Source: Paracoccaceae bacterium
Lineage (GTDB): Bacteria > Pseudomonadota > Alphaproteobacteria > Rhodobacterales > Rhodobacteraceae
NCBI GenBank assembly: GCA_003605175.1
Contig: QWDA01000007.1
Coordinates: 62,001 to 126,000 of the forward strand
DNA: 64,000 bases
Direction of reading: 5' to 3'
Shown here: positions 2,873 to 58,476 of the stretch, piece after piece
How the letters are laid out: each line of letters begins with the position of its first letter
Numbering within the stretch: position 1 is the first letter of the stretch
Notes under the pieces: model-generated
What the model was told of the DNA's origin: nothing
The model's database searches: none
What the model saw: only the letters and a program-made list of their open reading frames with translations
Made by a program: the position numbers and the translations under genes

Positions 2873-3559
2873 CTAGGAAACGAGCCGGTACCCACCAGAT
2901 TCCGTAACAAGTAGGCGTGCATTTGACGGGTCTGGTTCAATTTTTTGGCGAAGCCGATAAATATGTGTTTCCAGCGTGTGGGTTGTCACCCCGGCATTGT
3001 AGCCCCAGACTTCGTGCAGCAGCACGTCCCGCGCCACCACGCCCTCGGTCGCCCGGTAGAGGAACTTGAGGATGTTCGTCTCCTTCTCGGTGAGACGGAT
3101 CTTCTTCTCTTCCTCGGTGAGCAGCATCTTCTGCGCCGGCCGGAACGTGTAGGGCCCGAGCTGGAACACCGCGTCTTCCGACTGTTCGTGCTGGCGGAGC
3201 TGCGCCCGGATCCGCGCCAGCAGCACCGGCAGCTTGAACGGCTTCGTCACGTAATCGTTGGCCCCCGCATCGAGACCGAGGATCGTGTCGGCATCGGTGT
3301 CGTGGCCGGTCAGCATCAAGACCGGGCACTTGACCCCCTGCTTGCGCATCCGCCGGCAGAGTTCGCGGCCATCGGTATCGGGCAGGCCCACATCCAGGAT
3401 CACCAGGTCGTAGATCGCCTGCTTCGCCTTCTCGATCGCCTCGGCGCCCGATGCGGCCTCGAACACGTCGAAATCCTCGGTCAGAACCAGCTGTTCGCCA
3501 AGCGCCTCGCGCAGATCGTCGTCGTCGTCTACAAGAAGGATTTTCTTCAGGTTCGCCAT
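2873..3559 (-). CDS. OmpR-family response regulator, CenR-like
   Basis: A 228-residue two-domain regulator. Residues 7-120 form the receiver: acidic pocket DDDD near residue 11, phospho-acceptor Asp in LVILDVGLPDTDG, switch Thr in LMLTGHD and conserved Lys in YVTKPFK. Residues 130-226 form the winged-helix DNA-binding domain, including VTTHTLETHIYRLRQKIE. From memory this matches the alphaproteobacterial CenR group of cell-envelope regulators; that paralogue call is inference. No histidine kinase is adjacent. It is monocistronic, with a GGGAGG site before ATG and a strong terminator, and diverges from ribA. Confidence 0.9.
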   Translation of the reverse strand: MANLKKILLVDDDDDLREALGEQLVLTEDFDVFEAASGAEAIEKAKQAIYDLVILDVGLPDTDGRELCRRMRKQGVKCPVLMLTGHDTDADTILGLDAGANDYVTKPFKLPVLLARIRAQLRQHEQSEDAVFQLGPYTFRPAQKMLLTEEEKKIRLTEKETNILKFLYRATEGVVARDVLLHEVWGYNAGVTTHTLETHIYRLRQKIEPDPSNARLLVTESGGYRLVS

Positions 3560-57017: not shown

Positions 57018-58199
57018 CTACACCGCCGCGAGCGCCGCCCGGATGTCGTCGAGCAAGTCCTCCGGGTCCTCTATCCCCACCGAGAGCCGCACCAGCCCCG
57101 GCGTGATCCCCAGCATCGCGCGCTGTTCGTCCTTGAGCCGCTGATGGGTGGTGGTGGTCGGGTGGGTGACGATCGACTTCGCGTCGCCCAGGTTGTTGGA
57201 GATGGTGATGAGCTCCAGCGCGTTCAGGAACCGGAACGCCGCCTCCTGCCCACCCTTCAGGTCAAGCGACAGGACCGTGCCGCCCGAGCCCATCTGGCGC
57301 ATTGCCAGATAGTGCTGCGCGTGGCTCTTCAGCCCCGGATAGATCACCCGCGCGAGGCGAGGATCGCCCTCCAGCGCCTCGGCCAGCGCCTGCGCCCCCG
57401 CCGCCTGCGCGCGCACCCGGAGATCCAGCGTCTCCATGCCCTTCAGCATCACCCAGGCGTTGAACGGGCTCAGCGCCCCGCCGGTATGCTTCAGATAGGG
57501 CTCGGCCTTCTTGCGCACGAACTCCTTCGATCCAAGCAGCACACCGCCCAGCACCCGCCCCTGCCCGTCGATATGCTTGGTCGCGGAATAGACCACCACA
57601 TCGGCGCCATTCTCGATCGCGCGGCTGAAGACCGGCGTCGAGAACACGTTGTCGACGATCACCGTGGCGCCCACCTTGTGCGCCAGGTCGGCGACGCCGG
57701 CGATGTCGATCACCTCGAGCGTCGGGTTCGAAAGCGACTCGAGGAACACTGCCTTGGTATCGGGCCGCAGCGCCGCTTCCCACTGGGCAAGGTCGGTGCC
57801 ATCGACGAAGCTCACCTCGACACCGTAGCGCGTGAGCACCTCCTCGAGGATGTAGAGGCACGACCCGAACAGCGCCCGCGCCGAGACCACATGATCGCCC
57901 GCCTTCAGGATCGCGGTCAGCGCCCCGTTCACCGCCGCCATGCCCGACGCGGTGGCAAAAGCATCCTCGGCCCCTTCCAGCGCCGCGATCCGCTCCTCGA
58001 ACATCCGCACCGTCGGGTTGCCGTAGCGGGCATAGATGAACTCGTCCGGCCCCGTTTCGATGAACCGCGCCTGCGCCTGCTCCGCGCTGTCGTAGACGAA
58101 GCCCTGGGTCAGGAAGATCGCTTCCGAAACCTCGCCGTACTGACTGCGCCGGATGCCCGCATGAACGAGCTTCGTGCGCGTTTTCCAATCTTTCGTCAT
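57018..58199 (-). CDS. metZ: O-succinylhomoserine sulfhydrylase
   Basis: A 393-residue Cys/Met-metabolism PLP enzyme starting MTKDWKTRTKLVHAG. The PLP Lys is in VVYSATKHIDGQGR, the phosphate-binding region in FATASGMAAVNGAL, and the late SNNLGDAKSIVTHPTTTTH is standard. The sequence style is that of MetZ, which forms homocysteine directly from O-succinylhomoserine and sulfide; O-acetylhomoserine use is possible. The assignment is supported by the SAM-II riboswitch in the leader. A GGAAGGACG site precedes the ATG. Confidence 0.95.
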   Translation of the reverse strand: MTKDWKTRTKLVHAGIRRSQYGEVSEAIFLTQGFVYDSAEQAQARFIETGPDEFIYARYGNPTVRMFEERIAALEGAEDAFATASGMAAVNGALTAILKAGDHVVSARALFGSCLYILEEVLTRYGVEVSFVDGTDLAQWEAALRPDTKAVFLESLSNPTLEVIDIAGVADLAHKVGATVIVDNVFSTPVFSRAIENGADVVVYSATKHIDGQGRVLGGVLLGSKEFVRKKAEPYLKHTGGALSPFNAWVMLKGMETLDLRVRAQAAGAQALAEALEGDPRLARVIYPGLKSHAQHYLAMRQMGSGGTVLSLDLKGGQEAAFRFLNALELITISNNLGDAKSIVTHPTTTTHQRLKDEQRAMLGITPGLVRLSVGIEDPEDLLDDIRAALAAV

Positions 58200-58216
58200 G
58201 GGGTCGTCCTTCCAAC

Positions 58217-58246
58217 AAAAAAGCCCCCACCGCGAGCGTCGGGGGC
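58217..58246 (-). terminator. Attenuator-type terminator in the metZ leader
   Basis: On the minus strand GCCCCC and GGGGGC pair around an inner GC-rich stem and are followed by TTTTTT. It lies between the SAM-II aptamer and the metZ ribosome site, only about 18 bases before the start codon, so it must be bypassed for metZ expression. Confidence 0.85.
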
Positions 58247-58259
58247 CTTTCGTCCCTGA

Positions 58260-58313
58260 CCTCTTTAGCGGCTTGTTTAACGTGGCCCGCAATCCGGTGT
58301 ACAAATCGCCACG
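58260..58313 (-). ncRNA. SAM-II riboswitch (metZ leader)
   Basis: The minus strand reads CGTGGCGATTTGTACACC, then GGATTGCGGGCCACGTTAA, then ACAAGCCGCTAAAGAGG. These contain the invariant blocks of the SAM-II aptamer: CGTGG pairing with CCACG, the GATTTG loop, the ACGTTAAACAAG pseudoknot strand, and GCTAAA. Binding of S-adenosylmethionine should turn metZ off. It is followed at once by a Rho-independent terminator. Confidence 0.92.
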
Positions 58314-58476
58314 ACGCGTGTTGGCTAGCGCCGCGCTCGCGTTCCGTCAAGATGTTTGGACGCCCGCCGGCCGGCACCTCCGCCTCCCGGCTCAGCCCCG
58401 CGCCAGCGCAAATGGGCCTGCATATTGACGCCATCGGCCGGCGCACCACCTTCTGTCTCGGAAAGGAGATTCCCCC

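Follow-up and report, generated by a model that had tools for sequence, protein, structure and literature searches.

How the SAM-II leader in front of metZ controls its gene, and which RNA strand could act as its antiterminator, are the questions raised by this locus, which lies in a stretch of 64,000 nucleotides from a Paracoccaceae bacterium (contig QWDA01000007.1; hereafter the window). On the minus strand, a likely promoter is followed by a SAM-II aptamer, a terminator, a ribosome site and metZ (Table 1). The initial annotation had placed a SAM-II riboswitch and its terminator at 58217-58313 and proposed a covariance-model scan; this was run with cmscan and returned RF00521 over model positions 1-79 of 79 with 69.6 bits (E 1.4e-13), against a gathering score of 36 bits. 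The proposed interval is exact, its bounds being the first nucleotide of P1 (58313) and the last of the U-tract (58217), and the aptamer is the only SAM-II copy found in the genome. The downstream gene had been called metZ, and its product exceeded the cut-off of the TIGR01325 model (562.4 bits, cut-off 510). We consider it very likely that metZ, a gene of methionine synthesis, is switched off by this riboswitch through transcription termination when the methyl donor SAM is abundant.

Table 1. Features of the metZ leader and of metZ in the window, in the order in which they are transcribed.
Feature	Position	Strand	Description and basis
Likely promoter	58350-58322	-	TTGACG 58350-58345, 17-nt spacer, TAGCCA 58327-58322; read from sequence
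SAM-II aptamer RF00521	58322-58244	-	cmscan 69.6 bits; final model positions extend into the expression platform
Aptamer hairpin P1	58313-58281	-	CGUGGC 58313-58308 pairs with GCCACG 58286-58281
Pseudoknot P2	58298-58259	-	P2a, ACC 58298-58296 with GGU 58261-58259; P2b, GCGG 58290-58287 with CCGC 58271-58268
Proposed antiterminator	58263-58234	-	GAGGUC 58263-58258 and GGG 58256-58254 with CCC 58244-58242, GAC 58240-58238 and CUC 58236-58234; bulged G 58237; from folding and covariation in relatives
Intrinsic terminator	58246-58217	-	GCCCCC 58246-58241, GGGGGC 58228-58223, six U 58222-58217
Ribosome binding site GGAAGGA	58213-58207	-	7 nt 5' of ATG 58199; read from sequence
metZ, O-succinylhomoserine sulfhydrylase	58199-57018	-	393 aa; TIGR01325

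The promoter in Table 1 would place the transcript start near 58316. Among the leaders of the window's family, TTGA was found 34-37 nt 5' of P1 in 120 of 147 and TA 11-14 nt 5' of P1 in 124 of 147, and these positions indicate that the transcript likely begins a few nucleotides 5' of P1, so that the terminated RNA would be about 100 nt long. A consensus scan for a strict sigma-70 promoter and a terminator detected neither in the window leader; our guess is that the terminator was missed because only loops of 3-8 were allowed, and both elements were judged by folding and by comparison with relatives. The best energy of the terminator, with flanking A-U pairs, was -17.9 kcal/mol, which was equalled by 25 of 2000 dinucleotide shuffles of the leader. 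As the initial annotation had described, this six-U hairpin separates the aptamer from the ribosome site. A gap of 17 nt lies between the U-tract and the ATG, and the hairpin is 23 nt from the start codon. The metZ reading frame is open on the minus strand from 57018 to 58304, through the terminator and up to a TTG at 58304, and an automatic gene caller could thus put the start within the riboswitch. Elsewhere in the window, a member of the SorX sRNA family (RF02784, 76.4 bits) was found at 2785-2858 on the minus strand, directly 3' of an OmpR-type response-regulator ORF (2873-3559, minus strand). In Rhodobacter sphaeroides, the SorX RNA is processed from the 3' end of an OmpR-type response-regulator gene, and the same order occurs in the window.

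A SAM-II match is present in 160 of the 198 genomes of the window's family, which we take to be the Rhodobacteraceae. We read the 150 leaders listed (L001-L150, the window's own included) among about 162 matches. metZ lies directly downstream in all 146 leaders tested by tblastn with the window's MetZ as query, a count that omits four of the 150, which were placed by hand. The conserved aptamer core noted at the outset is also found in the relatives: all six pairs of P1 are formed in 139 of 142 readable leaders and P2b in 136 of 137, whereas all three pairs of P2a are formed in only 110 of 137. The two parts of the pseudoknot are presumably the P2a and P2b of the SAM-II structure, and were named accordingly. 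In the aptamers of L089 and L106, P2b is altered on both strands, from GCGG/CCGC to GUGG/CCAC, and this two-sided change supports the pseudoknot.

Analysis of the terminators showed a hairpin followed by a U-tract with a dG of -8 or lower in 132 of the 150 family leaders, against 194 of 1500 shuffles, and with a dG of -15 or lower in 104 leaders, against 66 of 1500 shuffles. The 18 leaders without a scored terminator were excluded from the pairing tests. Inspection by eye revealed a hairpin whose U-run is broken or short in four of them (L010, L056, L058 and L137) and no U-tract terminator in the other 14, all of which have an intact aptamer (L002, L016, L020, L039, L041, L045, L051, L059, L100, L101, L104, L130, L132 and L135); these metZ leaders may have switched to a different type of control. 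Some leaders are unusual in other ways. In L142, a 28-30 nt unit (GACCCGAAGGGTCATGAGGTCTTGCACC) is repeated in tandem about three times between the terminator and metZ and extends the leader to 191 nt, and L150 has two successive hairpin-U stretches between the aptamer and metZ. L073 is without the P1-side anchor, which served display only.

To represent the RNA before the 3' arm of the terminator is transcribed, leaders were folded from the 3' part of the aptamer to the terminator loop. A recurrent hairpin in the family joined AGAGGUC and the subsequent GGG to the C-rich arm and apical loop of the terminator; the strands of the window's version are the 3' strand of the aptamer's P2 and the terminator 5' arm with its apical loop (58244-58234). 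In all 132 leaders, three or more of the eight nucleotides at the start of the AGAGGUCA stretch are paired to the terminator arm or loop, a raw count without a null. Since G-rich and C-rich strands pair easily and the count has no null, the specificity of the partners was tested. The summed duplex energy of native partners was -942.6, against -843.5 (sd 16.4) for permuted ones, and was reached by none of 1000 permutations, nor by any of 500 in a separate run. In the 37 leaders without GGUC, native partners gave -260.4 and permuted ones -235.2 (sd 9.4), with 2 of 500 permutations reaching the native value. Taken singly, 54 of the 132 leaders exceed 95% of their shuffles, and the native partner is better than the mean swapped partner in 87. 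In the window leader taken by itself, 5% of shuffles (z -1.5) and 68% of foreign partners score as well as the native antiterminator.

When the leader and aptamer were scanned in 37 windows, the signal had its maximum exactly at the P2 3' strand (z -7.1), with z -3.7 and -5.6 two nucleotides to either side. The permutations ignore relatedness, and a test on close relatives lessens the effect of kinship. For this test we formed 64 disjoint pairs of close relatives according to MetZ sequence, the 8-letter strand differing within each pair. Native combinations were better in 40 pairs and crossed ones in 13, with 11 ties (sign test p 2.7e-4, Wilcoxon 2e-5). For a strand of 10 letters, native combinations were better in 38 and crossed ones in 15 of 65 pairs (p 0.002). 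Control windows elsewhere in the aptamer mostly showed no native lean, apart from a slight one at the P1 3' strand (16 versus 8). These comparisons support an antiterminator that would be built from the aptamer's own 3' strand and would exclude the terminator. We had also considered the terminator 3' arm as a copy of the aptamer 3' strand. This was rejected for the window, as 187 of 200 permutations reach the likeness within the family; outside the family it is weak, with at least five letters shared in 23 of 47 leaders and 4 of 200 permutations reaching it.

The two states of the window leader were computed from 58316 with a folding programme that omits the pseudoknot and the ligand SAM, and gave -35.3 kcal/mol for the antiterminator state and -34.9 kcal/mol for P1 with the terminator. 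The near-equal values would suit a ligand-driven switch, the gap being within the error of the energies, so that both states appear possible and the winner is not indicated. A fold that included 18 nt of DNA 5' of the likely start was dropped, as the promoter region entered into extended artefactual pairings. For the working of the switch, in which we infer SAM binding, the folding order and termination in the cell, the following course is proposed. Without SAM, P2 would not be stably closed and its 3' strand (GAGGUC...GGG) would be free to capture the emerging terminator 5' arm and loop, which would allow read-through into metZ. With SAM, P2 would close and hold GGU, the antiterminator would be blocked, the C-rich and G-rich arms would pair, and RNA polymerase would halt at the six U, leaving the RNA of about 100 nt.

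The same attenuation could be brought about by a different strand, namely the 3' strand of P1, whose GGGCC (58288-58284) can pair with a GGCCC at the terminator base; this pairing would open P1 rather than P2. This version looked best initially and was demoted to a rival that we now regard as unlikely. In the computed folds of the growing window RNA it appears at lengths of 74-86 nt, but from 88 nt on it is supplanted by the P2-strand antiterminator. The GCGGGCC beside P1 is almost invariant in the family, and the small lean of the P1 strand to its native partner noted above, which has a z of -4.7, amounts to 0.22 kcal/mol per leader, about a third of the 0.74 kcal/mol found for the P2 strand; outside the family the P1-strand signal is absent (z 0.2). 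The P1 strand may still help, since its invariant GGG is unable to covary.

That the terminator is constitutive or driven by another signal, while the aptamer acts chiefly on RNA stability, seems to us quite improbable. Such a role has been argued for part of the control of metA and metZ in S. meliloti, where, in the accessible part of that paper, SAM stabilises the RNAs and the metA terminator could not be linked to the riboswitch by the authors (PMC9373788). A constitutive terminator, however, would not need an apical loop that tracks the aptamer 3' end in relatives, as is observed. Least probable of all is translational control, with SAM binding masking the ribosome site and the hairpin incidental: it is known for the Sargasso Sea SAM-II, whose ribosome site is within P2 (PMC10907184, in part), and at least 14 of the 150 family leaders, having no U-tract terminator, must work otherwise, but in the window the ribosome site lies 45 nt 3' of P2a and past the U-tract, not inside P2 as in the metX type, terminators are kept in 132 of the 150 leaders, and the 23 nt from hairpin to start codon point to the transcription type under a published rule by which dual control needs 10 nt or fewer (PMC2258182, accessible text). 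The position of the terminator, its retention in the family and the covarying antiterminator thus favour transcription attenuation, as the initial annotation had done.

Beyond the family, the aptamer was found in 190 of 385 genomes of the class. We read the best-scoring 70 of the class loci listed, not a random draw, and four of these were without the core by pattern. A scored terminator is present in 47 of the 66 loci having the core pattern and missing from 19, and in several of the latter an A ahead of the U-run was seen by eye. Among these best-scoring loci, the aptamer 3' strand, mostly AAGGUCGG, pairs with the terminator 5' arm in all 47 scored leaders; native partners were better than permuted ones, with 10 of 1000 permutations reaching the native value. 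The longer P2a strand of the class leaders pairs with CCGACC or CCUGACC within the terminator arm itself. These data suggest that the alphaproteobacterial SAM-II leaders probably follow one rule of strand exchange, in which the P2 pseudoknot supplies its 3' strand as antiterminator and evolution maintains the match of the terminator 5' arm and loop to this strand. P2a would have been reduced to three pairs in the window's family, and part of this role would have passed to the terminator loop, with two or more layouts (CCCCGACGCUC and CUUUCGCUUGACC).

The best-known example of SAM-II is a translational one, whereas most alphaproteobacterial copies carry terminators and their control has been little tested. 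Regulon work, reportedly of the Leyn type, has dealt with SAM_alpha before metY, which we assume to be the present metZ. In the accessible part of that work, the element lies 5' of metY in 26 of 30 Rhizobiales and Rhodobacterales genomes (PMC4239095). The initial annotation had contrasted attenuation with the pure translational control ascribed to many SAM-II leaders; attenuation is no exception among SAM-II, according to the accessible text of two studies: many SAM-II carry putative terminators after P2, interpreted as an OFF switch (Corbino 2005, PMC1273637), and in alpha- and betaproteobacteria SAM-II is the one class for which an association with terminators is most frequent (Barrick and Breaker 2007, PMC2258182). 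Earlier mentions of an antiterminator, as far as the accessible sources go, are predictions for single genes, in Gluconobacter oxydans (PMC5756330) and in Figure S1 on S. meliloti metZ, where an alternative structure is predicted (PMC9373788). Our literature search, with most subscription journals outside its reach, found no comparative account of a SAM-II antiterminator. The value added here is an antiterminator that is testable and backed by covariation; if the P2 3' strand plays this part, a few base changes could probe how the pseudoknot drives termination.

The window leader can finally be set beside the known systems. It shares the aptamer fold of the Env/metX SAM-II (crystal structure 2QWY), from which it differs in that the ribosome site of the latter lies within P2, with translational control. 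The metZ SAM-II of Sinorhizobium meliloti, with its RZ sRNA, has the same gene in the same order, and in the accessible part of that study a terminated RNA about 100 nt in length is reported, which is higher at high SAM while metZ mRNA is lower (Scheuer 2022, PMC9373788). The Gluconobacter oxydans SAM-II likewise precedes an O-succinylhomoserine sulfhydrylase gene and has a terminator and an antiterminator predicted by a published programme; RNA-seq coverage of its leader was 20-fold over that of the gene, and the accessible text treats that single gene (PMC5756330), whereas a comparative test was made here. With the SAM-II (SAM_alpha, RF00521) leaders of metA, metZ and metX in alphaproteobacteria it has in common the full-length aptamer with P1 and P2, the methionine gene on the 3' side and the terminator after P2. 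Nothing distinguishes it from these leaders, and in the window's family P2a has three pairs and the loop of the terminator, as well as its arm, complements the aptamer 3' end. The window leader is a normal SAM-II attenuator of a kind already known.
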